Positions 5,497 to 48,814 of a stretch of 64,000 bases of DNA are shown here, one piece after another. Each line of letters begins with the position of its first letter. Position 1 is the first letter of the stretch. Both the position numbers and the translations under genes were made by a program. The stretch covers positions 2,358,501 through 2,422,500 of the forward strand of contig OX359192.1 of NCBI GenBank assembly GCA_947172415.1. The letters are read 5' to 3'. Source of the DNA: Chondrosia reniformis. Its lineage: Eukaryota; Porifera; Demospongiae; Chondrillida; Chondrillidae. The notes beneath the pieces are model-generated. The model was not told the origin of the DNA. It worked only from the letters and a program-made list of their open reading frames with translations, and did no database searches.

Positions 5497-6248
<752 letters not shown>

Positions 6249-14866: not shown

Positions 14867-14869
14867 GTG

Positions 14870-15127
14870 TGTGCAGGGTCATCAACACCTCGAAGCATCT
14901 TAAGGAATCTGATATCTTAAATCATGACTGTTACACGTTTTGCATGGCTAGCAGCTAAGTTACTGTCAAATAGAAAGTGTACAAGGTACGCTTCTGTGGC
15001 TTCTTGAAGGCATAGCAGAGCATCAATTTGCCATCTGAACTTGCTGGCACGTGGATGTCTTTCTTGCAGGATCTGTCTTACCAATCTCCCTTTTCAAATT
15101 GGAAGGTGTGTCGTCTTTTGGAAGTGC
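14870..15127 (-). pseudogene. cenpa: Degenerate cenH3 exon 2 copy
   Basis: The minus strand reads HFQKTTHLPI then a TGA stop after a small deletion, then [49 protein letters not shown] and another stop. Exon 1 is absent: upstream similarity to the intact gene lasts only about 110 bp (to about 15238), then unrelated sequence follows. Clearly a pseudogene of the gene at 11.1-12.4 kb. Confidence 0.85.
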
Positions 15128-15239
15128 CTGCAATAACAAATTAAGGACATGTTTCACTGATATCATTAGGCCACTCCAAATTACACTTTATAGTTTCCAG
15201 TCCACCGCCTGCATGCATTACAGAAAGCCACCTTCTTTT

Positions 15240-20437: not shown

Positions 20438-20590
20438 CTAAACAATAGAAATTTACACAAATTACATAGAACCAATGAACCAACGAATCTACGTACTACG
20501 TATATATAGTATACCTACAAATTCTATGTATATATTGAAGAATCTGAGTACAGAAGTACTGCATTTGAAAATGACTGGACCATAATCACA

Positions 20591-20896
20591 GCTCACACAG
20601 TGGAAGAGATAAAGGCTTAAGAAGGTGTGCATGGTACACAGCTCACACAGTGGAAGAGATAAAGGCTAAAGATGGTGTGCATGGTACACAGCTCACACAG
20701 TGGAAGAGATAAAGGCTAAAGATGGTGTGCATGGTACACAGCTCACACAGTGGAAGAGATAAAGGCTAAAGATGGTGTGCATGGTACACAGCTCACACAG
20801 TGGAAGAGATAAAGGCTAAAGATGGTGTGCATGGTACACAGCTCACACAGTGGAAGAGATAAAGGCTAAAGAAGGTGTGCATGGTACACAGCTCAC
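20591..20896. repeat. pam: 50-bp minisatellite derived from the PAM exon 5 splice-donor region
   Basis: About six copies of a 50-bp unit containing GCTCACACAGTGGAAGAGAT, AAAGGCTAAAGATGG and TGTGCATGGTACACA. The unit matches the single-copy exon 5/intron 5 boundary of the intact PAM gene (45630-45690), so the array grew from a splice-donor fragment at the truncation point of copy A. Confidence 0.88.
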
Positions 20897-22272: not shown

Positions 22273-25200
22273 TTAAAGAGAAACAAGCTCCTTCCCTTCA
22301 ACTGTAATGTTTGCATGTTTATGATTTGAGCTCTGTACTGGACACTTCTCAAGAGACTTTACAGTTTGAACATGTTCATTCCTTGAGATACCAGCACTGA
22401 TTGCTTTTGCCACTTTCTTTGATCTATCAGTAACTTGTGATATCCCAACACCAAGTGTTCTGACTTTAGCTGCTGAGCATGCTACTTCCATCTCATTCGG
22501 GTCAATAGTTGCAACCTACATCAGCAAATGTAATATACATAAGTCATAAAAATAGGCTAAAGGACTCATTTGATGTAACTACACATATTACTGTCAGATG
22601 AATAATGTAAATACAAACATGACTCCTCTAACACAGAATGTCAATGGAATGGTAGGTATTACAGAACTTGATATTCCTTTACAATGTCCTAGCTTTAATC
22701 ACAGTTACAGTATATACATAATATACTGACACTTACAGAAATATTTAGCAATTAAAAAAATAATTCTAAACAATGTCAGGTCAACAGCTAAAGATAGCAA
22801 ATACACTTGAAACTGACCCCTGATTCAAAATTCAGATCGATAAAAAGTATTAATTCTTCTAATACATCTCTTCTGTTCTTTAATGAGTGTAGTAGAGGTA
22901 CTGGATCTGTGTCCCACACTGTGAGTCTCCTCAACTGAACCATTTCCAGCACAGGAACCAGATCATGTCCATCGGCTGTGGAAGGAACAATGAAATATAT
23001 CAGCACTGTTCATTTTATAGAATACATTCACTATACAGTCATGTAGCTGGTATCACATACATAAAGAGAACAAATGTGTAAAAAGACTAACAATAAGTCA
23101 CTGAAGAAGACCCTCAGGGTCAAAACGTTTGACAAGAAAGAAGAATCAAGAAAAACTGCATCTTTAGACGCTCTAAAAGTCGAAAGATGACCCTTTCCAA
23201 AGATAAGTTCGACGCAGTTAGAAGGAATCCTTACTCTATTAACAATAAGTGTGTCAAACAAATGTATACAGTACATATGATTAATACAATAAAATGTACA
23301 AAATTTCAATGCACAACATAGACTTGATAATAAGGAACTTACTTGATTCAACATGCAAGTAATTAATTGATCTGTTCTGAGATATACATTCAATACACTT
23401 TAAAGGGGACAGTCCATCCAGCTGATTACAATGAAATGCTAACTTGTTCAAGTGACTGTTTTTGGCGATAGCTGATTTTAAGGATTCAAATTCTTTTTCA
23501 CATCCCTACATTTAAAATTTATAAGTGTATTCACATTAATATGTTCAATAGCTAAACTATCCATTAATTATATATTACTAAAATGGTAGGAGTCTTCTAT
23601 ATACTACTGATATATACATAAGAATAACAGACAATTTGAGTTGAAAATGGTGGAACTGGTGGCGCTTTATGGGATTCGTAAACTTAATGATTCTGGATGC
23701 CTAAGTATATACCCTCAATATTTTTTATTAAGAATGCCCATAGTTAGCAAATGTGTTACCATTTACAAATACTGTACATTTAAATATTTTTTATTATTTT
23801 TATTTTTTATAATAATAATAATAATGTAATGATTTTACATGTATAAGAAAAAACAATGCAGATGATGATAATAAGAGACACTGTTAATATATATAGTCAG
23901 TCCATATTCTAAAGAGAAAACTATTATAGAAACGGTTCAACCCCGGAGAGGGATGCGCCCCACACAGACGACAACATCCAAGGGAGCGCCTGCGTTGGGC
24001 ACATTGTTGCACCTTGATTGGGCTCCCCTTAGGCACATCACTGAAGATCTGAGCAAGGAGAAGTAAAGGCGGCATCTGAGCCAGCCCATTACGATACAAT
24101 ATGGTTGCTCTCGCTTCGTGGAGAGGAACGATGCTAGTCTCTTGTATGCAATGGTGGCAGCTTGGCACATCCCTCCTGATGTCGAGAAGACAAGGGGAGT
24201 GAAAGAGCCCTGCTCTATCTCACAAACTCGTTGCTCATACTCTCTGCGCTTCTCCCTTTCGTGGCGTCTGTAGCATGCAGCCATCTGGGTACTCCGGTAC
24301 GATGGTGCACAAGGGTTAAAAACCCGTACATCAAAAAATGCATGCTGCTGTCGTAGTCCCCAAAACCATGTGCTCTCACATCTAGGAGAGCGGATTCCTC
24401 CCTGTTGGCAGTGGCATATGACAGTTGCTTGCCGGAGAGGGGTTGCAGGGCTGGTTCCACACATACATCATGACACACCTCTGACATGAGATCCGCCGTG
24501 AGATCTCGTATCTCATTGTGGCAGACGATTGGAAAACCACCAGTTGGACAGTTCAATGTGTGGTCTATGGTAAAGGGTTTACCGCAGACGCATGTAGTGG
24601 GCAGTAGGGGTGGCTGCCAGCCGTACATTTAAATATTGAACCTGTATATACATACTACACTCAATCCTCCCTTATCCGGGCACCTTGGGACCAGGCACTG
24701 TCCATAACTCAGATATGCCCAGAACATGCTCCCCGTATCTGTGGTGCGTCCGGATAAGGGAGGATTGAGTGTAAATAGAGTATAACAACCTGAAGTAAGA
24801 AATTACTATAGGTCTTATTTCTTATATATATTCTTATATATATATGTCAGTGATATATTTCTTAACTCACTTAAATGTACAAAAATTTACTGTCTATAGA
24901 AACTATTTAAGTTTGTTATCTAAGGACTCATAACTCAGTCAAAAATGACAATTAGAAAATGATGCATAGTGACTCACTGTAAATGTACAGACACTGTCAT
25001 AGCTACCAAGTGTCAATCTCAGTGTCTCCAATCCCTTCCATGAAAACACTCTCATTAGGGCAAATACTGAAGTGGACTCGGTAATCCTCAGTCCCAGCTC
25101 CTTCGCTGAACATGTTCTTGTGAACATAGTCACTGCATCTAATACAAACACAAACACACACTTTATCATTATTAACATAGTCAACACTTATCAATAACAA

Positions 25201-28200
25201 ACACTATCAACTACATACATTATAATCTCATTCAAAATCACATATAATAGCATACCTCCATCTGATAATTCTGACAGTTCAACAATACATTTCTCAAGAC
25301 TTGAAAGATTAGTAACAATGGAGAGCCAATCAAAGAATTTTCTGTGTGACAGTATCTTGGCACATGAACAATCCAAACTGAAATCCTTCAGAGAGAGATT
25401 ACTAGGAACAAGTTCCTCTAATGAGCTACCTTCAGATTCCTGCATGCATAAATAAATACAGTAAAATATAACACAGAATGACTTACATTAAATGACAAAC
25501 GAGTTATCCAGCATTGCATGGTACATTTAATTGAGTCAACTTATAATTTGTTTGCATATATATTAGCCTGTAAGTACACTTAAGCTATCACAAACACTCT
25601 AGTGCAGTAGTGACTTAGATTGGAGAAAAGGGGTAATTTATATATAAGAAAGGCATTGGATGAATTAGTTACAATTTGAGCATCAGCAACACTTATTATT
25701 ATTAGGACGTTTCGACCGGTAGGTTCAGCAGTGAAGCAAGAAATGGATGCGAACCAACCAAGAGAAATTATTGTGTAACTATTAACTATTTGGAAATATA
25801 CATGAGGTTACAACTAATATATATACAGTTGCCTGCTTCATAATAATGACATAGACATTAGAAAATGATGCATAGTGACTCACTGTAAATGTACAGACAC
25901 TGTCATAGCTACCAAGTGTCAATCTCAGTGTCTCCAATCCCTTCCATGAAAACACTCTCATTAGGGCAAATACTGAAGTGGACTCGGTAATCCTCAGTCC
26001 CAGCTCCTTCGCTGAACATGTTCTTGTGAACATAGTCACTGCATCTAATACAAACACAAACATACACTTTATCATTATTAACATAGTCAACACTATCAAC
26101 TACATACATTCTGATCTCATTCAAAATCACATATAATAGCATACCTCCATCTGATAATTCTGACAGTTCAATATTACATTTCTCAAGACTTAAAAGATTA
26201 GTAACAATGGAGAGCCAATTAAAGAATTTTCTGTATGACAGTATCTTGGCACATGAACAATTCAAACTGAAATCCTTCAAAGAGAGATTACTAGGAACAA
26301 GTTCCTCTAATGAGCTACCTTCAGATTCCTGCATACATAAATAAAATACAGTAGAATCTCGTTAACACGAAATCGGTTAACGTGAAAAATCGCTTAAAAC
26401 GAAAGTTTTAATTGGTGCCTATATTTGTGCTATACTTCCCCATACATTATTATCCTTTTAACACAAAATTTGATAACACGAAAAATCGGTTAACGTGAAA
26501 GAAATGTGGCACACACGAAGTGTTAAAATCATTTAATACGAAATTTAATTATGGCAGCTAAGCAGAAATCGTTAACTATTAAAAAAGGTGCAAATATTGA
26601 AGGCTATCAAACAAAGCAGTGGTCAGCATGGCGCAAAAGGTAGAATTGCAAAGGAATTCGGCATTGCCAATTCAACTTTATCTGGGACAAGACCCGTATC
26701 TTTAACACTTTTGAAACGTCAACATTCGAGCTAAAAAGGAAGTGTCTACAGATGGCAAAATTTGAAGAGGTAGAGGACGCTTTGTTGCTTTGGTTTAAGG
26801 CTCCCGTGAGGCAAGCGAATTGGCAGGATTATAATTAGCCTCTTATAAATTTTAATACTACATTTCTATGTACCCTCTACTTCTCTTTAAGCATTATACT
26901 GTTAACACAAAATACTTTTAACACGAAATTTGTAAGCAGTCCCTTGGATTTCGTGTTAACGAGATTCTACTGTACAGTAAAATATAACACAGAATGACTT
27001 ACATTAAATGACAAACGAGTTATCCAGCATAGCATGGTACATTTAATTGAGTTAACTTATAATTTGTTTGCATATATATTAGCCTGTAAGTACACTTAAG
27101 CTATCACAAACACTCTAGTGCAGTAGTTACTTAGATTGGAGAAAAGGGGTAATTTATATATAAGAAATGCATTGCTGAGTCTGTTTTACCTGTACAAGCA
27201 AGTTTACTAATAGATTTATAATTAATTCATAAAAGTTAATTGGACCTACATTCCTTTCATAAAATTAAATTTCATCATGTGTCTTAGTTAACACCTTATT
27301 TAACTTTTGGCGCCAAAATAGTGTATATAAGGCCCCTAGATTTAGCATAGTGAGCCAAGGATTCACAGAAGATCAAGATAAAGAAACAGACAAAGACTGA
27401 TGAAGGGTGGAATTCTCAGAAACGGCTGTCTGACCCATGGAGAAGAAGATGAAAGAAGGGAAAAGAAGGAAGAAAAGACTCCTTATCTTCATCTAAAGCT
27501 CTCTTTAGGTTTAGTTCCCCTATGGGCTCTTTTTACAGAATAGGCATATAGCATGTAGGAAAATGGTATCTTAGATTTTTCATGTGTTTACTTAGCCTCA
27601 TGTTAGTCCCTGGTGGCTGTTGAGCCATTGTTGCCTTTAAATAGCCCCGGCTACATGTAATAGGTTAAGTCTTTGTGGACTAGCTTGTCTAGTCCTTGAC
27701 CCATTTCCAATCATGACAAGTACAAAGTATAGAGATAGGATACCGGCTGGGAGGTTGCCCGGGTTAACAAGCTCCCCGTCATTAGGTAAAGGTAGGGTGC
27801 CTGGTGATGAAAAGTTAGCTAACTCTCCCCCATCTGTAGGTAGAGGGGTGCCTACTGGTGGGCAAGCTAGCCCCTCACTAGTTAAGAAGTGTAGCAATAA
27901 GCGGTGTAAAACATGTCCCTCTTTAGTTACTGGCCCTACTTTTAAGAGTTCAGTTACTGGCAGGACCTATCAAGTCCGTAGCCCTTGTGGTCCCCTAGGA
28001 TGCCAGAGTAGGAATGTTGTGTATCTTATTACTTGTAAACAATGTGATGTACAGTATGTAGGAGAAACCTCTCAGATGCTTAGGAGTAGAATGAACAACC
28101 ATAGGACTAGTACCAAAGGTTTTAAGCCACTGTATCTTTACAATCACTTTAATTCTGATAACCATAGTTTTGATGATGCCTTGATTATGCCCATAGAACA

Positions 28201-31200
28201 GATACCTGAGACACCTAATTCTACTAGCCTCAGACTACTGAGAGAAGCGTTCTGGTACAAGGAACTCTGCTCTATTTACCCATATGGACTTAACGATAAC
28301 ATTAAAGGCGTTGGCAATATTTCGAAACTTAAAAAAGAAATCATCGTATGGAACCTTTTTAATCGCTTATCTCATAAAAGACGGCATCGGCGCTCCAATC
28401 TAAAATCGACAGGCAGTAGTAATAACGCTACCTTCGACCCTGAATGGCTCAAAGAACGACTACCACTTACAAGAACGTGGGCTTTCTAGCCAAACTTAAA
28501 CACGATACTTTTGCATTACAAGCTCGACACCTTCATCGTTTGTTAAACTCGGTACAATGTCTCATCGATACCCCAGAAACACCTTTTCCACTTAGACTTA
28601 TGCTAATGATTAAAGATGTTATTAAAGCACGCACTTCAGCCAGCCTTCCCAAACACCCAACGAAAACGACAAGTCCAAAAGGGTTTCTTAAAATCGTGTT
28701 TCATAATAAAGGTGTAGAAAAAATAGGCCTCTCAGGTATCTTAAACCAAAAGTTAATGTTAGAAACTGTCCTACCCTTTATACAAAACAAAGAGCCCCCA
28801 TGTGTAGTATTTAAGTATACCCAACCAATAGGACCTCAAATCTTTAACTTTTCACAAGTACCTTATTGACAACATTTATGTATGTGTAGACGGTTCTGTA
28901 TTTAAGCAATGTGTAGGTATCCCTATGGGTACTGACTGTGCCCCTGTAGTTGCTAATCTTTTTCTGTTTGCCTATGAGTATGAGTTTATGAAAGGACTAC
29001 TTAAGGATAACATCACTCTAGCTATTAAATTTTCCAATACTTATAGGTATATTGATAACCTTTTATGTATTAACAACAAGGATTTTGAACTGTCAATTAG
29101 TGATATTTACCCCAAAGAACTTATTCTTAAAAAGACAAATACCAGCCCTAAAAAATCCCCTTTTTAGACTTAGATATAACCATTACTAACAATCAATTTA
29201 TCACTAAAGTATATGATACTTTTGTCTATAGTTATGCTGAGTCTGTTTTACCTGTACAAGCAAGTTTACTAATAGATTTATAATTAATTCATAAAAGTTA
29301 ATTGGACCTACATTCCTTTCATAAAATTAAATTTCATCATGTGTCTTAGTTAACACCTTATTTAACTTTTGGCGCCAAAATAGTGTATATAAGGCCCCTA
29401 GATTTAGCATAGTGAGCCAAGGATTCACAGAAGATCAAGATAAAGAAAAAGACAAAGACTCCCAGGATCACTGATGAAGGGTGGAATTCCCAGAAACGGC
29501 TGTCTGACCCATGGAGAAGAAGATGAAAGAAGGGAAAAGAAGGAAGAAAAGACTCCTGTATCTTCATCTAAAGCTCTCTTTAGGTTTAGTTCCCCTATAG
29601 GCACTTTTTACAGAATAGGCATATAGCATGTAGGAAAATGGTATCTTAGATTTTTCATTGGATGAATTAGTTACAATTTGAGCATCAGCAACACTTATTA
29701 TTATTAGGACGTTTCGACCGGTAGGTTCAGCAATGAAGCAAGAAATGGATGCGAACCAACCAAGAGAAATTATTGTGTAACTATTAACTATTTGGAAATA
29801 TACATGAGGTTACAACTAATATATATACAGTTGCCTGCTTCATAATAATGACATAGACATTAGAAAATGATGCATAGTGACTCACTGTAAATGTACAGAC
29901 ACTGTCATAGCTACCAAGTGTCAATCTCAGTGTCTCCAATCCCTTCCATGAAAACACTCTCATTAGGGCAAATACTGAAGTGGACTCGGTAATCCTCAGT
30001 CCCAGCTCCTTCGCTGAACATGTTCTTGTGAACATAGTCACTGCATCTAATACAAACACAAACACACACTTTATCATTATTAACATAGTCAACACTTATC
30101 AATAACAAACACTATCAACTACATACATTATAATCTCATTCAAAATCACATATAATAGCATACCTCCTTCTGATAATTCTGACAGTTCAACAATACATTT
30201 CTCAAGACTTGAAAGATTAGTAACAATGGAGAGCCAATCAAAGAATTTTCTGTGTGACAGTATCTTGGCACATGAACAATCCAAACTGAAATCCTTCAGA
30301 GAGAGATTACTAGGAACAAGTTCCTCTAATGAGCTACCTTCAGATTCCTGCATGCATAAATAAATACAGTAAAATATAACACAGAATGACTTACATTAAA
30401 TGACAAACGAGTTATCCAGCATAGCATGGTACATTTAATTGAGTCAACTTATAATTTGTTTGCATATATATTAGCCTGTAAGTACACTTAAGCTATCACA
30501 AACACTCTAGTGCAGTAGTGACTTAGATTGGAGAAAAGGGGTAATTTATATATAAGAAAGGCATTGGATGAATTAGTTACAATTTGAGCATCAGCAACAC
30601 TTATTATTATTAGGACATTTCGACCGGTAGGTTCAGCAGTGAAGCAAGAAATGGATGTGAACCAACCAAGAGAAATTATTGTGCAACTCTTAACTTTTTG
30701 GAAATATGCATGAGGTTACAGCTAATACACAGTTGCCTGCTTCATAATAATGACATTGACATTAGAAAATAATGCATAGTGACTCACGGTTATTGTACAG
30801 ACACAAAGGTCCAATCTCAGTGTCTCCAATCCCTTCCATGAAAGCACTCTCATTAGGGCAAATACTGAAGTGGACTCAGTAATCCTCAGTCCCAGCTCCT
30901 TCATTGAACATGTTCTTGTGAACATAGTCACTGCATCTAATACAAACACAAACACACACTTTATCATTATTAACATAGTCAACACTAATTAATTGATAAC
31001 AAAATTAATGCTTAACTATGAATTAAAGAAATCAACATCTAACACTTATCACTTAGTTTTGTGGTCATATAGACAGAAATATCCAGTTATGTGTTACAAT
31101 AGCTTTATAGGTTTATATGAAAACAGTGTTATAATATAAAGTAATATCTTACCATTTGCAGTCAAGTGATCAAGGACAATATATCCCAACTTTTGCAAGT

Positions 31201-34200
31201 TTTGGTTGCTGTGTAGTAAATGCTTAACACTCTCAACAGGAAATGGATTTCTGGTTCTATCCATTTCCAACTCAATCAAATGAGTACAGTGTGCTAAACA
31301 ATTTAGTACAACCATCGCATCAAATGAACCTAGATAATAAAACCTAAGTGAACTATTCAAGTGCTTCAATGTTTCACACATAATAGTCTCATTTTGAGAC
31401 TCATGAAGCGCATGCAACAGGAAGAGGAGCCGAGGATTCCATCGATTAGATTTAGCTGGCAGCTGCAAAGTAGCACCAGCTACATTGGGTGGAGCAGCTG
31501 TTGTGGGAGTGGCAGGAGGCATGACAAAACATGATGGGATGAAATTTTTGCATGATAATTTTGTCAGCCCAGCATAAAATCGCAAGACCACAGCAAAGGA
31601 TGGATTGGAAATGTGGTCCTTCCAAAATATCACCTGATCCTTTTCGGAGAGCTGACTCAGGTGAAGGGCAGAAAAGAACTCTTGGAGAGTTGCATGGGAG
31701 AAATTGCCAGAAAATGTTGGCCTATATGCATGTTTTCCAATGTGTAGGTGAAGGAGTCCTTTGAACAGGGAGTCGTGGGGGTTTCCCTTAATTTCATGGA
31801 AGACATTCCGAATGGCTTTCTCAGTGAAAATGTATTTGGATGGTTTAGCTGTCAAACCTTTAAAGGCAAGTTCTCCTAGACGCCAAAGGAGGTCCTGTAG
31901 GTCTTCTGGGAGCTCAGAAAGAGTTGGGTCAATGTAGATATCTCTTCCCTCTTTTTCACATTCCCTAGAACACAGGTCACTAACATGACCTTGGTAACAT
32001 TCTGTGATGGTGGCAGGAAGTGAATATTGATTGGCTTTGAAAGTGGAACAGAAAATAAACAGATTCATTGGAATGTAGACTCCACCATTCAAATCAGGAC
32101 GATCTCTGATGGTCTGCAACATTCTCTCAGCAGAACGTGGATCATCTTTGAAGAACTCCTTCACGTAAGCCTTAACAGCCTTCTCATCAAAACCCTGCAC
32201 TTCATAGAACTGATTGGCATTTTCCTGTAGTTCAGGACAAACACCAGGTCGACTAGAAAGTATGATTGAGGCTTCCGGTAGCAACTTCCCTTTTAACAGC
32301 TTCAAAAGGACAGAATTGGATCCCTTCTGTAGAAGCTCTCTAGCTTCATCAGCACCATCAAATATCAGCAATGTGTCTCGGCCCTTTCCTTCCTCTAGCA
32401 TTTTGGTTGCCATGGTGATGTCTACAGAGGACCCCTCCCCATAATATCCAAGTAGACTGGGTAGGTCGGTACAGCAAGAAACACTCTCCTCTCTCAAGGG
32501 AAAGAAGAGAATGAACGCAAAATCACTCTTGATCTGAGAGAGAGCTATTTGTAGACAGATGTGCTTCATGGCAGTTGTCTTTCCTGCTCCCGCTTGACCA
32601 TATACGATTCGTATCCTATCTTTACATTGCTTAGCTAAATCTTTAACATCTATGTAGCCCTCAATTTCACTTTTAGGACCACACTCCCTTAATCGTTTTA
32701 ATGTTTCTAATTGATCTCCCTTTGTCACTAAGACTGATGGCTTGTCCTTCACTATGGCTAGTCTGACAAACCTTACTTCACTGTCTCCTTCAGCCAGCTT
32801 ATATGACTTGTATTCACCAAATGCATTTTCTTGTAGCTTTAATAGAGGGCCCTACAGAATGAAACATATAGCATATTTATATGAGAATTACCACAAGGAG
32901 ATATTAATATTTCATAATTATATATCTAATAAATATTATACAGTATACAAATGTAGAGATCTTTGTTCATCTAACTGAATTTTGTTAGCATGCATAACTG
33001 GGCAAACATACGACATTTCATAGATTTGTATAGTACACTCTACGCAGGCGTCTGCAAATAGCATGCAGCGTGGTTGACAACGGATCTTCTGTACAAATCC
33101 GCACATATGCATACGGAAAATGGTGAAAGACAGACGCCTGCGTAGAGTGTACTATACAGGTCTATAAAATGTCATATATTATACGTATAAGGTAAAGTAG
33201 AGGGTTTTCGAATACAACACTGCCTTTCCCTAATTCGAGAAATACGATAAAGAGACGCTCCTTGTTCCCTTAACTCCTGCGCTAACTGGGAAGAAAGTAA
33301 GAAGTTCTATTGCATACAGGCGAAAGGTGGCGCTGTGTTCGGAAACCCCCTGCTACACGTCTGTCATTAAAATAAATGGAGCTCCTTCTGGGCATTAAAC
33401 TTCTTAGATGGTAGGCAGATTGCTTGAGTCTTGTATTTTTCAATTATCACTGTATGACCTTTGAACTGTCTATTTAATTTGTGCTTACTTAAACAAATAT
33501 TGCATGATTAAACAAACAATGCACTTGCTTATAATAAACATTGAGGTTAACCTCAATGATTGAAGAGTGTGACTAAAATGGCAGAGCGAGCAATCGAGCC
33601 TCCAAACAGTTTTTCGTTTCCGAACGTGACTGCGAGGATACTGCTTCAGCAGCTGATACTCGCCTTCAATCGTGAGATTGGAGATATATTGCGTACGTGT
33701 GCGCGTTCATCTGAGGAAATCTTCGGCATTTTATAGACCCTCAGACAATCCGCGCATTGCCCCGAGGGCGCCCGTGTATTAGCGTATGGCTACCTGAGGA
33801 AAACCTACGCGGAGTGTGCCTGGAAGAATATAAGTTATCTGTGTCACATACCGTATATATATATATGTAGCTACTGAATGTACATATACTTACTGGTAGA
33901 TCTAGAGCGGACTGGTTAAGATCAACCTGATGTACATTCTGAGGAGGTACATTCTGAGGATGTACATTCTGAGTAGGTACATTCTGAGTAGGTACGTTCT
34001 GATGAGGTACATTCTGATAAGGTACATTCTGAGGAGGTACGTTCTGAGGAGGTACGTTCTGATAAGGTACGTTCTGAGGAGGTACGTTCTGATAAGGTAC
34101 ATTCTGAGGAAGTACGCTCTGATAAGGTACGTTCTGAGGAGGTACGATCTGATAAGGTACGTTCTGAGGAGGTACGTTCTGATAAGGTACATTCTGAGGA

Positions 34201-35634
34201 AGTACGCTCTGATAAGGTACGTTCTGAGGAGGTACGATCTGATAAGGTACGTTCTGAGGAGGTACGTTCTGATAAGGTACGTTCTGAGGAGGTACGTTCT
34301 GATAAGGTACGTTCTGAGGAGGTACGTTCTGATAAGGTACATTCTGAGGAGGTACATTCTGAGGAGGTACGCTCTGAGGAGGTACATTCTGATAAGGTAC
34401 GTTCTGAGGAGGTACGTTCTGATAAGGTACGTTCTGAGGAGGTACGTTCTGATAAGGTACGTTCTGAGGAGGTACATTCTGAGGAGGTACATTCTGAGGA
34501 GGTATGTTCTGAGGAGGTACATTCTGATAAGGTACGTTCTGAGGAGGTACGTTTTGAGGAGGTACATTCTGAGGAGGTACGTTCTGAGGAGGTACGTTCT
34601 GAGGAGGTACGTTCTGAGGAGGTACGTTCTGATAAGGTATATTCTGATGAGGTACATTCTGAGGAGGTAGATTTTGATAAGGTATATTCTGAGGAGGTAC
34701 ATTCTGAGGAGGTACGTTCTGATGAGGTACGTTCTGATGAGGTACGTTCTGAGGAAGTACATTCTGAGGAGGTACGTTCTGATAAGGTACGTTCTGAGGA
34801 GGTACATTCTGAGGAGGAACATTCTGAGGAGGTACGTTTTGAGGAGGTACGTTCTGAGGAGGTACGTTCTGAGGAGGTACATTCTGAGGAGGTACGTTCT
34901 GAGGAGGTACGTTCTGAGGAGGTACATTCTGAGGAGGTACGTTCTGATAAGGTACGTTCTGAGGAGGTACGTTCTGATAAGGTACGTTCTGAGGAGGTAT
35001 GTTCTGATAAGGTACGTTCTGAGGAGGTACATTCTGATAAGGTACGTTCTGATAAGGTACGTTTTCTCCATTAGAGTGCCGAGAAACTAAGAAAATATGT
35101 TTATATAAGTGGTGTGGTTGCATACATATATACTCTATGTAATCTGATGAGTAACATTCAAATGATCATTCTTTTGTCCATAATCTTATAGCTAACATTT
35201 AAGTATATATAATGTTATAATTACTTTAAAGTAGACGTTACTTATAAGGTAAGCCAAAGCTATGAATATGTTTGCAAGAATGTTACACTCATAGTTACAC
35301 ATGAATACCCACCTGATGAGGTAGCATCAAGAGATAAAAAATCCTCAATAACCTTTGCAAAACTCTTATTCATGTTTGTAGTATTAGGAGCTTCCTTTAG
35401 TACTTTAGCAGCTGCTTTAAGTGTCTTTGGAGCTGGGTCATTGTGAAGGAACTGGTAGAACAGGTCATTTGCATCAGCTACACTTGAAGTAGAGTCCAAC
35501 TGTTGTCTCCGTCCTTGCGATATGACATGCTCATGCACAAGATCAAAACGTACTACGTAAGCATTACAGTGCTTTATATGACTCTCCTTGTGTTGGTCCA
35601 GAAATGCAATGACCTCATTTGGTCGCTTTTCCAT
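22273..35634 (-). CDS. CARD-NACHT-LRR (NLR) innate immune receptor with pentapeptide-repeat linker
   Basis: Cytosolic NOD-like receptor, about 1650 aa. Exons inferred: 35313-35634, 33894-35086, 31153-32851, 30788-30936, 30164-30347, 29886-30046, 26145-26328, 25884-26044, 25256-25439, 24978-25138, 23343-23505, about 22818-22975, 22273-22515; phases fit throughout. Exon 1 (107 aa) resembles a CARD (FYQFLHNDPAPKTLKAAAKV). Exon 2 is almost wholly V-P-[PY]-Q-N repeats (about 75). The NACHT exon has Walker A GQAGAGKTT, Walker B LLIFDGADE and SSRPGVCPEL. Downstream exons alternate between two LRR types of 161 and 184 bp. Introns carry several mobile elements. Less certain: that the CARD exon is the true start, and the final donor. 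The NLR expansion known from demosponges is the closest precedent I can name. Confidence 0.85.
23937..24628 (-). mobile_element. Frameshifted retroelement C-terminal fragment in an NLR intron
   Basis: Two overlapping minus-strand frames. 24215-24628 gives CVCGKPFTIDHTLNCPTGGF and HNEIRDLTADLMSEVCHDVC. 23937-24464 continues in another frame with FFDVRVFNPCAPSYRST, HEREKRREYEQRV and FTPLVFSTSGGM. This is the C-terminal part of a reverse-transcriptase-type polyprotein common in marine invertebrate genomes. A frameshift near 24370-24460 and the missing RT core show it is dead. The exact clade is not resolved. Confidence 0.65.
24658..24771. mobile_element. Short TA-flanked MITE, 114 bp
   Basis: Terminal inverted repeats CACTCAATCCTCCCTTATCC and the complement GGATAAGGGAGGATTGAGTG, bounded by TA on each side. 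The size and TA duplication suggest a Tc1/mariner/pogo-type non-autonomous element. Confidence 0.8.
26349..26972 (+). mobile_element. Internally deleted pogo/Tigger-like DNA transposon
   Basis: 624 bp with terminal inverted repeats CAGTAGAATCTCGTTAACAC and GTGTTAACGAGATTCTACTG, flanked by TA. Inside are broken pieces of a transposase N-terminus: AAKQKSLTIKK, then after a frameshift VQILKAIKQSSG and GRIAKEFGIANSTLSG (HTH psq), then KRKCLQMAKFEEVEDALL (CENP-B-type HTH). The DDE domain is missing. It sits only in LRR unit B, so it inserted after the unit duplicated. Confidence 0.85.
27175..27580 (+). repeat. 5' pseudo-LTR of the Penelope-like element
   Basis: Begins GCTGAGTCTGTTTTACCTG and ends TTAGATTTTTCAT. 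Nearly identical to 29236-29653 but lacks 12 bases (CTCCCAGGATCA) just before CTGATGA, which removes the 5' strand of the candidate hammerhead stem I. Confidence 0.85.
27713..28489 (+). CDS. GIY-YIG endonuclease domain of the Penelope-like element
   Basis: 258 codons from ATG 27713. Low-complexity N-terminus, then a Cys-rich linker (KKCSNKRCKTCPSL) and the GIY-YIG-type module: VVYLITCKQCDVQYVGET, RSRMNNHR and later FWYKELCSIYPYGLN. The cysteines and histidine around CKQC and NNHR match the metal-binding arrangement reported for Naiad endonucleases. The role would be target nicking for retrotransposition. The frame overlaps the following RT frame by 46 bases in a different phase; this could be a mutation or an original overlap. 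Confidence 0.8.
   Translation: MTSTKYRDRIPAGRLPGLTSSPSLGKGRVPGDEKLANSPPSVGRGVPTGGQASPSLVKKCSNKRCKTCPSLVTGPTFKSSVTGRTYQVRSPCGPLGCQSRNVVYLITCKQCDVQYVGETSQMLRSRMNNHRTSTKGFKPLYLYNHFNSDNHSFDDALIMPIEQIPETPNSTSLRLLREAFWYKELCSIYPYGLNDNIKGVGNISKLKKEIIVWNLFNRLSHKRRHRRSNLKSTGSSNNATFDPEWLKERLPLTRTWAF
28444..29280 (+). pseudogene. Broken reverse transcriptase of the Penelope-like element
   Basis: The first frame (28444-28869) contains KLKHDTFALQARHLHRLLNS and ends PQIFNFSQVPY. A one-base shift near 28855 continues as YLIDNIYVCVDGSVF and KQCVGIPMGTDCAPVVANLF, typical Penelope RT motifs. The catalytic motif, normally YIDD, reads YIDN. After FLDLDITITNNQF the frame runs into pseudo-LTR sequence and stops at 29281-29283, so the thumb region is missing. 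Not functional. Confidence 0.82.
29236..29653 (+). repeat. 3' pseudo-LTR of the Penelope-like element
   Basis: Direct copy of 27175-27580 with the 12-base CTCCCAGGATCA segment intact. Contains the candidate hammerhead at 29459-29516. A third, solo copy lies on the minus strand at 62939-63180, and older remnants occur at 19905-20025 and 44990-45122. Confidence 0.88.
29459..29516 (+). ncRNA. Candidate minimal type I hammerhead ribozyme in the 3' pseudo-LTR
   Basis: Core pieces in order: CTGATGA (29471-29477), stem II GGG...CCC, GAAAC (29493-29497), four-base loop GGCT, GTC (29502-29504; cleavage would follow the C). Stem I can form from CTCC...TCA before the core and TGA...GGAG after the GTC, with an internal loop. 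Stem III is only two pairs (A-U, C-G), as in the minimal hammerheads reported from Penelope-like elements. Weak point: an A-A apposition at the base of stem II. Activity is unproven. Confidence 0.5.
33012..33173. mobile_element. Foldback MITE in an NLR intron
   Basis: Arms of about 43 bp: GTATAGTACACTCTACGCAG at the left and CTGCGTAGAGTGTACTATAC at the right, with further pairing to GACATTT and AAATGTC at the ends. Internal sequence non-coding. Confidence 0.8.
33578..33691 (+). other. Possible plus-strand first exon inside the NLR intron
   Basis: ATG in good context (TAAAATGGCAGAG) opens 38 codons, MAERAIEPPNSFSFPNVTAR onward, then a splice-donor-like GTACGTGTG. The peptide looks protein-like (ILLQQLILAFNREIGDIL helix), but no second exon was identified and the family is not recognised. 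It may be a gene fragment or chance. Confidence 0.25.
33935..35070 (-). repeat. 15-bp coding minisatellite, about 75 copies (V-P-[PY]-Q-N)
   Basis: On the minus strand the unit is GTACCTCCTCAGAAC or GTACCTTATCAGAAC. It is an uninterrupted in-frame array inside NLR exon 2 (33894-35086), with rare H, T, L or S variants. Exon phases on both sides (1 and 0) match the CARD and NACHT exons, so the array is translated as a linker of about 380 residues. Long open frames on the plus strand and in other phases are by-products. Confidence 0.9.
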
Positions 35635-39010: not shown

Positions 39011-39954
39011 TATTTGGCACCTTCAAAAGTAACACACTTCGGATAGAGCGCATTGAAATCCAGGGTAGCCTATTCCCTAGTTCGGAAGCATTCATGACGA
39101 TTTAGTATTTGTATGTACCTGCGTAAGTTTGCATATTAGCGCTAGCTCATTTGAAAAAGAAGAAGAAAAAATGAGGAATTTCAGAATTTGGCCTATTTCG
39201 GTTTAACCAGTTTGCGAAGGTTGTAAAGCATCGAAACATGTTTAGGCATTTAGAAAAGCATGCAAAAACGACTGCAAACACTCGAATGCAACCGAAAATC
39301 CTATCGTTGTTGATTTATGAGGTGTTAATTGATAATACATTGGATAGGGCGGCCATGTTTTTTCGGCCCATCCCTACTTAGAGTACTGCCGTACTCTCTG
39401 ATAGAGCTTATCACATGACTTAATATAGGTACATCGGCTATAACGCTCATAGGTGTGTTCAGTGAACAGATAGTCTATTATATTGATTCCATTGTTACAA
39501 TCTGAAGATATGAGGGTATTCTATAACTAAAACTTAAATAGTCTAACAAGTATTTTTCTAAAATAGTGTCCATTGATATATATTCTCTCTTAGTACAACT
39601 AGATACAGCTTAGACCCACAAACAAACTGTAAGTAATAAATAAAACATGCCAGCTTTATAAAAGAAATCTAATTATCTATATCAATCTTGTTCTTCATAT
39701 TAAACAGAAGAATTTCAAACACAAATAAATATGTCCAGAAAAATAATACACCGAAACATATATGCAAAAGTTAAATACATGTAATCACATGGGTGATAAA
39801 TCTTGACTTGTTCTTAATTTACATTACATTTACTACGTATAATATGAAATCAAAAAGTGACCAAATGACAAATAATAGATGGGGTAATTAAAACCTCGAA
39901 TCATCCTAATGAAATAAAATTGATGTCTTGTAACTGTTACAGGCCTTGCATGGA

Positions 39955-40237
39955 TTACCACTGACTTCCGTAGGTAGGGTCACCAACACCTCGAAGCATC
40001 CTAATGAATCTGACATCTTGAATCATAACTGTTACACGCTTTACATGGATTGCAGCCAAGTTACTGTCCGATAGGAAGTGTACAAGGTACGCTTCTGTGG
40101 CTTCTTGAAGGCATGCCAGAGCATCCATTTTCCATCTGAACTCGCTGGCATGCGGATGTCTTTCCTGCAGGATCTGTCTTACCAATCTCCCAAATGGAGC
40201 CTTGCGCATTAGAAGGTGTGTCGTCTTTTGGAAGTGC
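39955..40237 (-). pseudogene. cenpa: cenH3 exon 2 copy with intact reading frame but no exon 1
   Basis: Same length as exon 2 of the intact gene (283 bp) with acceptor and stop kept: [77 protein letters not shown]. Several substitutions (H for R, KM for QS, V for A) relative to the 11.1-kb gene. No exon 1 is found up to PAM; as in copy 1 the region is replaced by unrelated sequence. Most likely a fragment. The open frame may reflect youth, gene conversion, or use from an unknown start. Confidence 0.75.
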
Positions 40238-40389
40238 CTGCAATAACAAATTATGGTTATATGTAACATGCTTCACTGATATCATTAGGCCACTCCAAAT
40301 TACACTTTATAGTTTCCCGTCCACCGCCTGCATGCATTACAGAAAGCCACCTTCTTTTTATTATTGTCTTTTATTATATTATAGTCTAC

Positions 40390-41676
40390 TATAATACGCT
40401 AATAAATTTTACAGTGTGAAGTCACATCTATAGTGTGCGCGCTCATTGTTTCCACCTCGTGGTCTTCTAACGGCTAGTCCAACTAGTCCTATGTGAAGTC
40501 TTAGATTTTCCCTGTCAACACTAACATAGTTAGTTTTTTGTGCCATGTTCTGCATACTTTCTAACATTATGGTTTGCATGTAGCCACAAACTGGAAAACC
40601 TATACAGTCAGTTTTGGGTAGTTTGGTAGTAAAATAATGAATAACAAAAATGCCCTCCCTCCTGCATGCTTTTTGGCACCTGGGGGAGTGGTAGGAAACT
40701 AAGTGTAAAATTTGAAGTGGCCTTATATATTTACTGTAAGTAAGTACAGCCTTTTGCACTATCTGGTATTAAATATTCTAGTTCACCATGTGACATGATT
40801 AAGTAAAAATAGAGAAGTAGTGGTCTCGGTTATGCTAGGCTAGCCATGTACGTACGTACATGGAGATTAATAGATTATATGAAGAATGGGATCAAGACAA
40901 ACAGTGAAGCTGGACCACATAGTGTTTAGAAGATCCAGGGATATCATTTATGCATACTACTACTTCTTATTTATATATAGGACAGCAAAGCACTACATCT
41001 TGGCAAGTATTTACAAGGACACAGGCTCAGAACTTAAAGAAATGTTTTTTTAATAATATGTACTTATCTTTTTAATATTTTTTGTAATATCAGTTTAGTG
41101 CATGTATTTATTATACCTTGTTTTTTAGGATAATCAGTGAAAAAAGATCTCACCTCCCTTTGGTTTAGGAGGGATACAGCCTATTGATTTTTCTTTGTCT
41201 GGCTTGGATAATATGTCAATGACTACTTATTTCACTAGAGGATTTTGACAGACCCTAAACGCCATGCTATCCGTATTTTGGCGCCTAATTCGACTATATT
41301 CCACCCTTTTCATTGTCAAAAGTATTCACTTAAATGTAGAATATCAATTTGAATGTTAATTACTTAATTATAACTTATCAATTTACCGTATATCGATACA
41401 TAATAATTATTATCTTACGAAATCGCTAACGTTTTGTAACGCACCACGTGCTGCGACCGTTCCGTTCCGTTCCGCATTTTAGTAACACCCAGAAACCCCG
41501 CCTTTTCGTATTACGCAAAAACGTCACGTGACACTCAACGATGCGTGGTTTTACACAAATCCAGAATCAATGATCTGTTTTATTCCAAAAATAGGCAATG
41601 TATCGACTTTCCACAAATGAAAAACAGTTTATTAATTACTAGTTTTTGCAACTGTGCATTATGCCTGTTAAAACGT
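40390..41676. other. Gene-free interval between the cenH3 fragment and PAM
   Basis: Counterpart of 15270-16555. Nearly identical from about 40790. Contains the CATGTACGTACGTACATG palindrome and the E-box block with GTCACGTGAC near 41523. No gene supported. Confidence 0.5.
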
Positions 41677-44600
41677 TTAAAGATGTTCAAAAATAACATC
41701 TTCTGCTTCACTCTCAGAATCGAAGGTCCTCACCCTCACAAAGCCTTGGTGTGAGGGTCCAAGCAATGAGTGCAAGTTTTCTTTTGCTTTTTGAGCTTTC
41801 TTGGAGATGTTTAGATTCTTCCTCTTGCAAGAAGAACAGCGATTGCAACACTGTAGCTTCCAACATACATACACAAATGATAAGCAGAGGACAAGAATGA
41901 TAGCTACAAGGATAGCTACCCCTAAAGCTATGCCTCCGTAGTGCATCAGAGGGCTCTTATGAATACATTCTGCGTCATAAGAAAATACAGTACAATTATC
42001 ATTCTCCTCATCCAAAATAACTTTGTGGTGCTTGTTCCCAAATCCATTCTCATCTGGTAGTAACCCACTGTCTGGAGTTGCTTTGTGGCAGTTCTCTGGA
42101 GGAACTGATTGGGGGCAGTCCTCGTGTATCTCTGTATCATTCACCTTATCGTGATGAAGGTCATCCTCCCAATCTGCTTTTGGCATATTTGTCTCATCTT
42201 GCACCTTAACATTTTCAGAATTGTTATTAGAAGCTTCAGTTGAGTTGGGTGGACGTATACCAATAGTACGGTTTCTTACTTTACCAGCATGATTGTCTAA
42301 CAGAAGACACAGGCATATAATATCGTTTACTTTATTCTTTCTGTCTCTCTTACACTGTGTAGATGGATACTTACAAGATTCTGGAACAAACTTCCAAATT
42401 CGGTTTGGCCCGATTTCTGCTACATAAACAGCACTTCCATCACCACTAGCTGACACATCGTGGGCTTTAGCAAAGCCACCCTAAAAGTACAAAGCAGGCT
42501 GAGAAGTACACACAACGTAGTTAGAAGAAATCCTTATTCTATTGCATATGAATATATAAAATCACGACACACTCCCACTCTACACCTCATATCCACACCT
42601 CCGCACCAATCATCTTGGATTCTAATGTGACCTATTGCTAGGTTGCTAGGCAACTATCCATATTCACTATCATATACTAGTGCCATGGGCATTATAATCA
42701 CACATGAATCTACAAACGTGTGTGCTTGTGATGTGAGAGTTGGTAAGAGGGTATGTGATGCTCAACAGACCTGAGGCCCCCACTCTTCCTCAGTTCCATT
42801 GAAATAGATGGTGGATCCATTAACACCTCTACTTTGAGTGGCTTCAAATACAGCATACATAAGTGGTGTATCTCCTATTCAGACAACGCAAGAATGAACA
42901 GTATATGCTCCAAAATACATTAGAGATTTAAAGTAGGCCTAAAAGATTACTGCTGAATAAAATCAAGCATGTACATACATATGTATTGCCATCAATAGGT
43001 GGAAAACATGTTACAACTACCTTGCCCTGTATACGTAAATGTTGCACTCACTCGTATCCTTGGGTGCAGCCACTGCATAGACTGGGTGGGAGAGGTAGCG
43101 AACTGATAAAACACTCATATTAGATGTTGCTAGAGTGATGATGCGACTGTTTTCCCTGTCAGCCACCAGTAAGGCACTGTCACTGTTGATTAGAGCAAGG
43201 CTGTGTGGAACAAACATTTCTGAGGAAGGAATATCACAGTCAGATGAGTACATTAACTAAGGATATAGGAGAGCCATTTACACATAAGCTTACGTTTTCC
43301 ATCCACAGCACTTTTAAAAACTTGCAAAATGCCACCAAACTTGGAAAACTTTATGACACGTCTATTGCAATACCTTAACCAATACACAGTGATAGTAAAA
43401 TAGAAGTATGTAAGCAACATGGCCCAAAGTCAACACACACTATCAAGCTGTTACACCACACAATGTTTTAGCAGCTAATACTAACCCATCTGCTACATAA
43501 AAATTTCCACTGGTTTCCACAGCAACGGCAGCAGGCTTACAGAAATGTGACAGGTCATTTCCGGGCTCAAAGGCCACACCCAGTGTCAGTTCAGGTTTGC
43601 CATCCAACAACCTCTGGGCACCAAACTTGAACACCTGATGCATAGCTACATCTGTGAGCCAGATGTTTCCCTCAGAGTCCACTGTAAGCCCATGAGGCAA
43701 GTAAAACCTTTACAGCAAGGCAGGATTACAGGGAAATAATATATATAGTGTTTAGTTTACAAGTGAGCACTCTATGGATGCTCCTACTTGTTTGCTCCAT
43801 ATTTTCCTAACAGTCCTCCAGTGCTGGAGAGGTGCAGTATAGTAGGAATCGCAATGGGACCATCATCCTTCTGAAGAAATCTGTCATTCATGTCAAAGGA
43901 ACTGCATAGAACAAAACATATACTAGAATTAACAGTCATACTAAACTGCTGTTCAACAGAGAAAGCTACACTATAGTCATACAGAAAGAAGAACTACCAT
44001 ATAGATGGAAATATTGGGGGGAATATATTTTGGTGAATTGGCATTTTTCACACAAATCACCAAATTATGATCCACTAATAATTATTGCATCATAGTGACA
44101 TTATCCATTGTAATGTGAGTAACCACCAAAATTAAAACCACCAATATCTAAAATCGCCAAATATTCTCCCACCAATATTTCTGGCTATATGGTATGAAAT
44201 AAAATAAGTGTGAGTCTAAAGGAACTAAGTTAATCCAAATTAGTTGGGGAAGATAATGCACTGAATGAAGTATACAGGTGATTGTGGGTATGTACATATA
44301 CGTACAGGTTAATAGAATCATGTTGAACCTACCTTTCATCCCATATTCTATTCCCTCTGTGGAACACATACAGGTCACCTTCCCTGCACACATCAACAGC
44401 TGTCACCTGGCCCAATGGGACGGAGAGGAGGGGCTTAGCCTCCTTTCCAGCCTTGCCATTGAGTGCCCAATCATGGGCCAGCTGAAGGTTTTTCAGTGTG
44501 TGTACCGTGATGGAGGAGGTGTCTCCATCAGTGGAGTTCTCTGTTTGTGGTGGGTGGGGAGCAGGGCTGTGGGTGGGGTCATCTGGGAGTGGCAGAGCAA

Positions 44601-47600
44601 CCTCTGATATGGCAGGCAACTGAACTCCATAAAAGTTATTGGAATACCCAATTCCACAAATATCATTTGCAATAGTCTTGCCATCATTAGTGGTGTAATA
44701 CATGATGTAAAAGTTGCACATTTCATCTGTAGTATCAGACCTAGGATGTACGTAGATATGCAGTGACAGCAAGTCAATTTCGGTTCCGCCCTTTTGCTCA
44801 TTTGTGCTCCTCAGGAGACATGAGTGGGTGAGGTAAAATCCAGAATCAAATGATGAGATATTTATATCTATCTTAGACATTCAGTTCCAGATACATATAT
44901 GGTAGATATTAATGATATTCATTAGACAGAGGGAAAGGGATGGATTTAGCAAAGTATTAAGGAAGAGATCAAATTACTTTGTGCATAAGAAGAAGAAAGG
45001 AAAAGAAGAAAGAAAAGACTCATGTATCTTTGTCCAAAGCTCTCTCCAGGTTTAGTTCCCCTATAGGCTTTTTTAGAGAATAGGCATAGCATGTAGGTAA
45101 ATGGTATATTAGATTTTTCATGTCATACAGTGTACTTTGTTGACCCTTCACTAAACTGATCTCTTCCTTTGGTCAGACAATATATAGAGGTTTGACAATA
45201 CCAAAGCATTATCACTAATGAACTACTAACCCAATGTTAACAACATGTTTATCTTCAGATGTATTATAGATACACCTAGCTGCTACATAGTCCTCCTTGT
45301 GGATGGTTGTATTACTGATGACAGGATAAAAAGCCTGTGGATCCTGGGGACTTCTGTTGCCAATAACCTCCCAAGTGCTCTCATCATGCTGTCTGGAGAA
45401 CCCAGTGATCTGAGTGCAGCGACTGTGGGCGTGGACACGGTATGCAAAGGGCGTGATGGCCTGGGTGTTATCATAGCGACACGCACCTGATATATCAAAT
45501 GCTAAACAATAGAAATGTACACAAATTACGTAGAACCAACGAATCTATGTGCTACGTATATATAGTACACATACATATTCTATGTATATATTGAAGAATA
45601 TGAGTACAGAAGTACTGCATTTGAATGCAGATTTGTGAAAGAGGTAAAGGCTAAGGATGGTGTGCATGGTACACAGCTCACTACTCTCTCCCTGCCTAAT
45701 GCTGCTACTGCCAATAATGAGATACACTCCAGCACTATACTGAGGTCTGCAATAAAGTTAAAAAGCAAAAGATTAGTTAATCATAGTTGTGGATATAGAC
45801 CTACGTACGTAACAGAGTAACAGTTGTGGTTGTGATTAATTAGACCTAGCAGAGTAACAGTAGCTGTAGCAGAGTAACAGTTGTGGTTGTGATTATCTAG
45901 ACCTAGCAGAGTAACAGTTGTGGTTGCGATTATCTAGACCTAACAGAGTAACAGTTGTGGTTGTGATTATCTAGGCCTAGCAGAGTAACAGTTGTGGTTG
46001 CGATTATCTAGGGTGACAAGCGTGGTTATGTACATTGTCAGCCTAACACACACTGCAGTACCTTGTCTTTGTCAAAGAGACTGTCAGTCCGGAGGTGTCA
46101 CTAGAACGGTTAGGATTTCCAAAGTGCAGCTGAACAACAAGATGGCGGATACCTGCATCTTGTCCCACCCTGTACCCAACACCTGGGTGTGTAAGTGTAC
46201 AGGTGTGTGTTGTACGTATGTGCATATGTGTAGGTGGGGTGAGAAAGAAACACAAACTATTAACAGAAAGACACTTGAGGATAATGCTCTATAGTAAAGG
46301 ATAGACTAAAAAGGTTTAACTTGATGGACCTACCTACATATGTAAATGATTTCATTCAAATGAGTTGTGGACATACGTATTACCCTCTTAAAGTACGCAT
46401 AAGTAAGTCAGAACTAAATATGGAGACCGACCTTCTGGAAGTTGCAAGCCTTCAGCATTGTTGGCCCATGCGTAGAGTATTTTTCCCGATTCTGCTTTAC
46501 AGGTACCTCCCATGTTCTTGCAGTCCCAGGCCGTTCTGTCACTATAGGGCTCAGCACATCCATAAAGCAACATGTGGTGCACCATTCCGGGTGTCACAGA
46601 AGGCTCATAGCCAACTATACATAATAGCAGGTGATGTGGGGTGTGACATGTGGAGGAGAGGTGATGTGGGGTGTGACATGTGGAGGAGAGGTGATGTGGG
46701 GTGTGACATGTGGAGGAGAGGTGATGTGGGGTGTGACATGTGGAGGAGAGGTGATGTGGGGTGTGACACATGGAGGAGAGGTGATGTGGGGTGTGACATG
46801 TGGAGGAGAGGTGATGTGGGGTGTGATACATGGAGGAGAGGTGATGTGGGGTGTGACATGTGGAGGAGAGGTGATGTGGGGTGTGACATGTGGAGGAGAG
46901 GTGATGTGGGGTGTGACATGTGGAGGAGAGGTGATGTGGGGTGTGACATGTGGAGGAGAGGTGATGTGGGTGTGACATGTGGAGGAGAGGTGATGTGGGG
47001 TGTGATACATGTAGGCTGTGTCACTGAACCATTCAACAACTATTTATAAATATCAATATTATGGTGGAAATACTGTACATTTGAGAAAACCACAATTGTT
47101 ACATAAACTGCACTTAAAAGTTGGTGGAGGAAAGGACTAGAATGAGGCAGCAAAAATAGAAGAGAAAGATGTGATTTTACTTGTAAATATGCAGTAGGCA
47201 ACTTGGCATACTGTACAATTCACACAAAAGTACTTCTACACCGTATACATACAATTGAGTATCAAGATAGTAATGTATACAAAGTTGACAAGTAGGTGTC
47301 GGGATCTTTCTTATAGTAGTCTATTCAACTGACACATTTTACTTACTTCACAAAATGTGTCTCTGGACAATCAGAGCACATTTGTAACTTATGATACGAA
47401 GGCCACCACAAGTTGCCATTTTGAAATTGAAATACGTAGTACAATATAATATTACAAATTGAAATAGTACTATACAGATTCAATGTTTACATAGAGCTGC
47501 ATACATCTGTAGTACTGAGCATACGGGTGACTTCCTAACCACATTACATTGATCATAAATACAAGGGTTCTAAATGGTGTAATTAGATTGGTTGAATTCA

Positions 47601-48743: not shown

Positions 48744-48814
48744 TGCACTGCCCGGGAGTCGAACCCGGCTCGCAAGAATGGGAATCTTGCATGCTACCGC
48801 TACACCAGCAGTGC
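48744..48814 (-). tRNA. tRNA-Gly (anticodon CCC)
   Basis: 71 nt on the minus strand starting GCACTGCTGGTGTAGCGGT. Acceptor stem GCACTGC/GCAGTGC, D-arm with GGTGTAGCGGTA (A box), anticodon stem CAAGA/TCTTG around loop TTCCCAT, giving anticodon CCC, T-arm with GGTTCGACTCC (B box), discriminator A at 48744. No intron. It lies 130 bp upstream of the PAM start and 180 bp from the CSPG4 stop. Confidence 0.97.

Follow-up and report, generated by a model that had tools for sequence, protein, structure and literature searches.

We consider it probable that a tandem array of the pentapeptide VPxQN in the sponge Chondrosia reniformis is encoded by a genuine protein-coding exon in a receptor gene of the NLR type, and that its product is a long disordered tether, variable in length, which connects interchangeable N-terminal heads to the NACHT module. 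At the level of sequence, the array joins the exons on either side of it in an in-frame chain, and the gene and its close paralogues carry anything from 0 to 75 units. The window, by which we mean the whole 64,000-nucleotide stretch that was analysed, corresponds to C4:2358501–2422500, and the genome that was searched comprised 117,379,552 bases in 15 contigs.

The receptor gene of the window and its linker exon

The exons of the receptor gene are predicted as follows.

35313..35634, minus strand: N1 exon from ATG to donor, an open frame ending at a GTGGGT donor in phase 1; helical domain of about 107 residues
33894..35086, minus strand: linker exon of 1193 bp, entered in phase 1 and left in phase 0; encodes the head VSRHSNGEN, 75 VPxQN units and the tail VHQVDLNQSALDLP
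31153..32851, minus strand: NACHT exon with NTPase, winged-helix and HD2-like regions and the start of an LRR-like part; phase 0 in, presumably phase 1 out, GTAAGA donor
30806..30937, minus strand: LRR-like exon type A, copy 1; presumably phase 1 in, 0 out
30165..30347, minus strand: LRR-like exon type B, copy 1; presumably phase 0 in, 1 out
29913..30047, minus strand: LRR-like exon type A, copy 2
26146..26328, minus strand: LRR-like exon type B, copy 2, past an apparent retroelement
25911..26045, minus strand: LRR-like exon type A, copy 3
25257..25439, minus strand: LRR-like exon type B, copy 3
25005..25139, minus strand: LRR-like exon type A, copy 4

On the minus strand the linker exon is preceded by TTTCTTAG before 35086 and followed by GTAAGTAT after 33894, giving AG and GT at its borders, and Tandem Repeats Finder reports a tandem array with a 30-bp unit at 33932–35063 (score 1592). 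The array proper accounts for 375 residues of the window gene. A first-pass annotation of this DNA had described about 75 in-frame V-P-[PY]-Q-N pentapeptides; the number stands, whereas the motif as written is exact in 55 of the 75 and each of the remaining 20 departs from it by one residue. Translation of the exon gives 38 VPPQN, 17 VPYQN, 4 VPHQN and 3 VLPQN units together with 13 others (two each of IPPQN, IPYQN, VPYQI, VPYQS and VPTQN, and one each of LPPQN, VPPQS and VHPQN). The exon as a whole encodes 30% Pro, 19% Gln, 18% Asn and 18% Val, with a charge close to nil.

The same annotation had proposed that the array forms one coding exon, entered in phase 1 and left in phase 0, which joins the N-terminal module to the NACHT exon, and this is supported by the splice sites and by the stop-free translation of the chain of upstream, linker and NACHT exons. 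When the linker exon is left out of the window gene, a stop appears 12 codons into the NACHT exon, at codon 120, and its omission in three other members of the family described below brought an early stop in all three. The open frame itself is a poor guide. Frames of 474, 394 and 382 residues on the minus strand and of 360 residues on the plus strand run across the array, and because a stop-free 15-bp unit holds several frames open, openness alone proves little; the coding case rests instead on the splice phases and the paralogues. The possibility that the frame is trivially open is countered by those phases and by the paralogous exons that lack the repeat.

The NACHT exon matches PF05729 with an E value of 1e-26 (94.2 bits, the cut-off being 26.7), with Pfam matches below their cut-offs to NLRC4_HD2 (E 0.0013) and NOD2_WH (E 0.15), and it matches 25 sequences of solved structure, the best of them NLRP3 (E 9.4e-12). 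The seven repeated exons downstream were judged LRR-like by eye; the two frames tried gave no match to Pfam LRR models. Amid this region, on the plus strand at 27641–29167, one frame encodes a GIY-YIG domain according to Pfam (E 5.2e-05) and a neighbouring one weakly resembles reverse transcriptase (E 0.0079, short of the cut-off); together they look like an inserted retroelement, possibly Penelope-like.

The nine-gene subfamily and its heads

A search of the genome with the NACHT exon (76 of 116 candidates scored) revealed nine loci that stand apart: the window gene itself at 100%, and eight others at 86–89% identity to its NACHT exon. The next match after these nine is at 50%. All nine NACHT exons are open across the 538 codons that they share, and the 36 pairwise comparisons over these codons gave a median dS of 0.084 and a median dN/dS of 0.70 (maximum 1.12). 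The high identity, low dS and dN/dS of 0.70 indicate that the nine members are young duplicates under mild constraint. They belong to a large repertoire, since at least 101 NACHT loci are present in the genome (101 of 139 candidates scored). Five members are clustered at C6:207–278 kb (loci L009, L010, L068 and L069), and L009, L010 and L068 have the same pair of upstream frame types in common, which suggests tandem duplication of a larger block.

The members are given below with the kind of head, the number of units in the array, the number of matches to a degenerate VPxQN DNA pattern and, where head, linker and NACHT exons join in frame, the length of NACHT sequence joined in the chain.

Window (C4), minus strand: N1 head; 75 units; 36 pattern matches; 1721 bp joined
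C6 at 210 kb (C6:210k): CARD-like head; zero units; 74 bp joined
C6 at 222 kb (C6:222k): caspase-like head; 19 and 17 units in two exons; 24 pattern matches
C6 at 239 kb (C6:239k): N1 head; 4 units; 1 pattern match; 756 bp joined
C6 at 253 kb (C6:253k): caspase-like head; 63 units; 38 pattern matches; 601 bp joined
C6 at 277 kb (C6:277k): CARD-like head; zero units; 128 bp joined
C7: caspase-like head, assigned from position alone; 3 units
C8: N1 head; 10 units; 8 pattern matches
C9: N1 head; 44 units; 39 pattern matches; 1728 bp joined

The first-pass annotation had asked whether other receptors of the species carry VPxQN linkers, and arrays are indeed present in seven of the nine members. 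The degenerate pattern has 146 matches in the genome, all of them inside linker arrays of the subfamily, against none for a reversed-pattern control; recounting of the loci recovered the full tally (36 reverse and 110 forward, the latter made up of 24+1+38+8+39), and the repeat counts are lower bounds. The array on C7 is too short and varied for this pattern and was detected by a different one. A dispersed minisatellite was thereby ruled out, and within the reach of the genome searches the repeat is confined, as far as its sequence can be recognized, to the nine-gene subfamily. One exact 39-base degenerate pattern had no match among viral sequences and a single match among prokaryotes, where a mycobacterial frame rich in Pro contains three VPPQN; we judge this match to be chance.

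The linker exon is also recognizable where the repeat is missing. C6:210k and C6:277k possess this exon with its phases unchanged (1 in, 0 out), yet it holds no units there. In C6:239k there are two such exons, of which the first is unit-free (phase 1 to 0) and the second contains the four units (phase 0 to 0). GTAAGT donors and the phase-1/phase-0 linker exon are conserved in the paralogues, these repeat-free exons included. Head, linker and NACHT exons form an in-frame, stop-free chain in six of the nine members, and no simple in-frame path was found in the gene models of the other three. In C6:222k the caspase-like head and the first array do join in frame, and entry into the second array breaks the frame; in C8 the NACHT exon starts later than in its sisters and no simple junction into it was found; in C7 the sole acceptor spotted sits within the array. 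These three may be pseudogenes or genes with overlooked exons.

Three kinds of head precede the linker, namely N1 in four members, a caspase-like head in three (one of them with an added weak CARD match) and a CARD-like head in two. Judged by splice phases, the linker is entered in phase 1 below all three, N1 and the CARD-like heads directly and the caspase-like heads through one extra exon. The caspase-like heads match the Pfam C14 family (PF00656) above its cut-off in all three cases, with E values of 4.5e-09 for C6:222k, 6e-05 for C6:253k and 2.1e-05 for C7, and that of C6:222k matches caspase-3 structures (E 0.00031) and, more weakly, legumain. Two of the heads contain GHG and INACRE and one contains GHA and FDGCRD; GHG/GHA and NACRE/DGCRD presumably mark the positions of the caspase catalytic pair. 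The gene model of C6:253k can be read without a stop from its caspase-like exon, by way of one intervening exon and the linker of 63 units, into NACHT, the junctions being in phases 1, 1 and 0; it is the only one of the three caspase-like heads for which an in-frame run through to NACHT was obtained. The CARD-like heads of C6:210k and C6:277k have Pfam E values of 0.0014 to 0.0065, below the cut-offs, and the head of C6:277k matches the Apaf-1 CARD (E 0.0034). C7 adds a weak Pfam CARD_2 match (E 0.0049) and an 11-residue stretch resembling the start of N1 (E 0.34), perhaps a remnant.

The head of the window gene had been labelled a CARD by the first-pass annotation, a label that the searches do not confirm. 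Pfam gave no CARD or Death match for the window N1, four close relatives or seven distant relatives, a 19-sequence N1 profile run against solved structures returned only four unrelated chains (E 0.24 to 6.1), and comparison with the profile of the CARD-like sister heads gave a probability of 1.1%. Among the frames of the nine loci, the best match of the N1 profile outside its own family is the weakly CARD-matching exon of C7 (E 0.031, short of the inclusion threshold), a single weak hint in the sequence toward a CARD. A single-sequence structure model has five helices at low confidence (pLDDT 58.7). At E <= 0.01, with 150 of the 299 candidates scored, the family has at least 150 matches in the genome. 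Of its best 27 matches, 16 have a same-strand NACHT within 6 kb downstream, four of these being subfamily members, and the other 11 have no NACHT within 6 kb downstream among the 101 NACHT loci listed. We regard N1 as an NLR head.

A 33-bp tandem repeat, which one plus-strand frame would translate into units of QTEPQVSQTAD, lies about 350–660 bp upstream of N1 exons in loci L047, L049, L052 and L053 and upstream of NACHT in L016 and L034; possibly other NLRs are accompanied by this second kind of repeat.

Possible functions of the linker

The 235 units of the eight arrays contain no stop. Gln4 is present in all 235, Asn5 in 230, Pro2 in 226 and Val1 in 218, and position 3 is Pro in 174, Tyr in 38, Leu in 10, His in 9, Thr in 3 and Ser in 1. 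Copies within an array are not independent, and in a test for selection each change was counted once per array, giving 45 events. In the coding frame, synonymous changes numbered 14 where 8.8 were expected (P 0.026), and there were no stops where 3.6 were expected (P 0.02); frame 2 showed 18 synonymous changes against 12.5 expected (P 0.0445) with P 0.0525 for stops, and the corresponding P values for frame 1 were 0.98 and 0.096. The signal of frame-specific selection on the units is weak, and frame 2 shows a similar one. Nucleotide positions 4, 6, 9, 10, 11 and 13 of the unit are invariant throughout; positions 6 and 9 are synonymous sites and are invariant to the same degree as the first two bases of the Gln codon, so the invariance may come from homogenisation of the arrays and not from selection. 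The evidence of selective constraint on the VPxQN units is thus weak.

Our current view of the linker is built on its composition and its place in the gene. A chain rich in Pro, Gln, Asn and Val and nearly uncharged should be disordered and extended, and a scaling law puts its estimated rms span at about 14 nm for 397 residues against 3 nm for 22. We infer that the linker exon serves as a standard joint for different heads; the unit being 15 bp, its gain or loss keeps the frame, so that slippage or unequal exchange could freely alter the length of the tether. When NACHT engines assemble, such a tether would let the heads reach and meet one another, and its length would set their reach and local concentration. 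Repeat number may tune signalling, and the subfamily tolerates every length, zero included. The interpretation in the first-pass annotation thus finds partial support in the unit number, which varies widely among paralogues, in the manner of a length-variable spacer; that length tunes signalling is something we hypothesize, a neutral length being nearly as likely. The invariant synonymous sites slightly lower our confidence in the tether.

The strongest competing account is that of a neutral coding minisatellite, in which a tolerated 15-bp repeat grew by slippage within a short, little-constrained linker and has no function beyond an intact frame, and we put its chances at somewhat under even. 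The absence of units from two sister genes and, in a third, from one linker exon out of two is what it would lead one to expect, as are the wide spread of lengths at so low a dS (with the dN/dS noted above) and a constraint test that is weak, not unique to the coding frame and accompanied by two invariant synonymous sites. It is less easily reconciled with the keeping of one frame within all eight arrays, without a stop in 235 units (the second array of C6:222k being entered out of frame), or with a unit found nowhere else in the genome searches, although these points leave room for neutrality. A different reading denies the exon its place in the receptor altogether: head and repeat would form a gene ending at position 33741, with NACHT belonging to another gene, or the array would be intronic. 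A stop is indeed present at 33741, as had been noted, when the donor is read through, and a retained intron would give a protein of 555 residues; three of nine members, moreover, fail to close in frame. Against this stand the conserved phase-1/phase-0 exons with their GTAAGT donors and the fit of the frame in six of nine, and the phases are conserved even in repeat-free exons, which would not stay open automatically. With this neither separate genes nor a non-coding array agrees well, and we consider both very unlikely.

Two further proposals would give the units themselves a biochemical role. The YQN-V/I units read like the pYxN motifs to which Grb2-like SH2 domains bind, and phosphorylated units might recruit many adaptors to a multivalent docking scaffold. 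The window has 23 units with Tyr, 19 of them YQN, and there are 34 YQN among all 235 units; Tyr is, however, missing from five of the eight arrays, so that Grb2-type docking is not a family-wide function, and the Tyr codons possibly arose from the Pro codon by two-step drift through His, the His units already counted above. A conserved binding role is partly contradicted by the two unit-free members and by the variable residue being Tyr in three of eight arrays only, and a docking scaffold strikes us as very unlikely. Alternatively, the linker could act as a tripwire for a protease or kinase, its cutting or modification freeing or exposing a module, in the manner of the disordered stretches of NLRP1 and CARD8 in humans. 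It would be a disordered segment near an N-terminal module, as in the layout of human NLRP1. Tripwire cleavage and linker phosphorylation are described in one source (PMC12945228). The core unit, VPPQN or VPYQN, offers no Ser, Thr or Lys, however, and two members have no array; a tripwire role would fit by position only, and we think it very unlikely.

Returning to the disordered tether, we also entertain, as a doubtful extension, the idea of one receptor chassis with many heads. Across the nine NLR genes of the subfamily a freely variable, repeat-coded tether would then be the standard joint, the head would be swapped (N1, CARD-like or a directly joined caspase) and reach or threshold would be tuned by a repeat number that possibly differs between individuals. 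Should the tether prove real and its length prove important, the nine near-identical receptors would constitute a natural series, with 0 to 75 units per exon and three heads, allowing a direct test of linker length in NLR assembly. An early-branching animal would then have exchanged receptor heads at one exon joint, and a NACHT receptor would have a caspase attached to it directly, in place of one recruited by way of a CARD.

Related systems and other features of the window

We found no description in the open-access literature searched of a tandem-repeat linker between an NLR head and NACHT, and no mention there of VPPQN, VPYQN or PPQNVPPQN. NLRP1-like tripwire receptors have an autoproteolytic FIIND/UPA-CARD C-terminus, and the disordered regions of NLRP1 and CARD8 are not known to be tandem repeats. 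The N-terminal regions of these two human proteins resemble the probably disordered sponge linker in being disordered stretches, functional in an inflammasome sensor (PMC12945228); theirs are regulated by cleavage or phosphorylation.

The sponge genes are like animal NLRs in general in having a NACHT that matches NLRP3 and NLRP1 structures, LRR-like exons and a large expanded family. In the sponge Dysidea avara, 126 NACHT+LRR genes are reported, 20 with CARD and 25 with DEATH, and the words linker, disordered and low complexity are absent from the main text of that paper (PMC12909245). What sets the subfamily apart from animal NLRs, the NLRC, NLRD and NLRX sets of sponges among them, is the array of VPxQN units, as many as 75, that separates the head from NACHT. 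Fungal NACHT-WD proteins (HET-D/E/R) and ANK/TPR NLRs, whose repeats are nearly identical, likewise comprise paralogues with differing N-terminal domains and show repeat-number polymorphism by repeat exchange (PMC4986451); their repeats are folded C-terminal WD, ANK or TPR repeats, whereas that of the sponge is probably a disordered linker before NACHT. Bacterial Periscope proteins, in which repeat number sets the projection of an N-terminal functional domain (PMC8201768), are folded rods on bacterial surfaces, and the resemblance is one of principle only.

The remainder of the window contains several other features. Two long copies of a segment, at 14560–19880 and 39664–44989 on the plus strand, are 96.6% identical over 5368 aligned bp, with extra pieces around them, and both contain a 267-residue frame on the minus strand (16556–17359 and 41677–42480) whose DNA is identical in the two copies. 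A large gene on the minus strand at 48997–59033 encodes many Cadherin_3 repeats, of the CSPG type, with a weak Laminin_G_2 match at its start. A homeodomain exon lies at 5766–6248 on the plus strand (Pfam E 1.1e-22) and a tRNA gene at 48744–48814 on the minus strand (Rfam, 55.6 bits), and further tandem arrays are found at 2574–2994 (51-bp unit), 20587–20896 (50 bp), 46629–47005 (30 bp) and 60823–61051 (44 bp).
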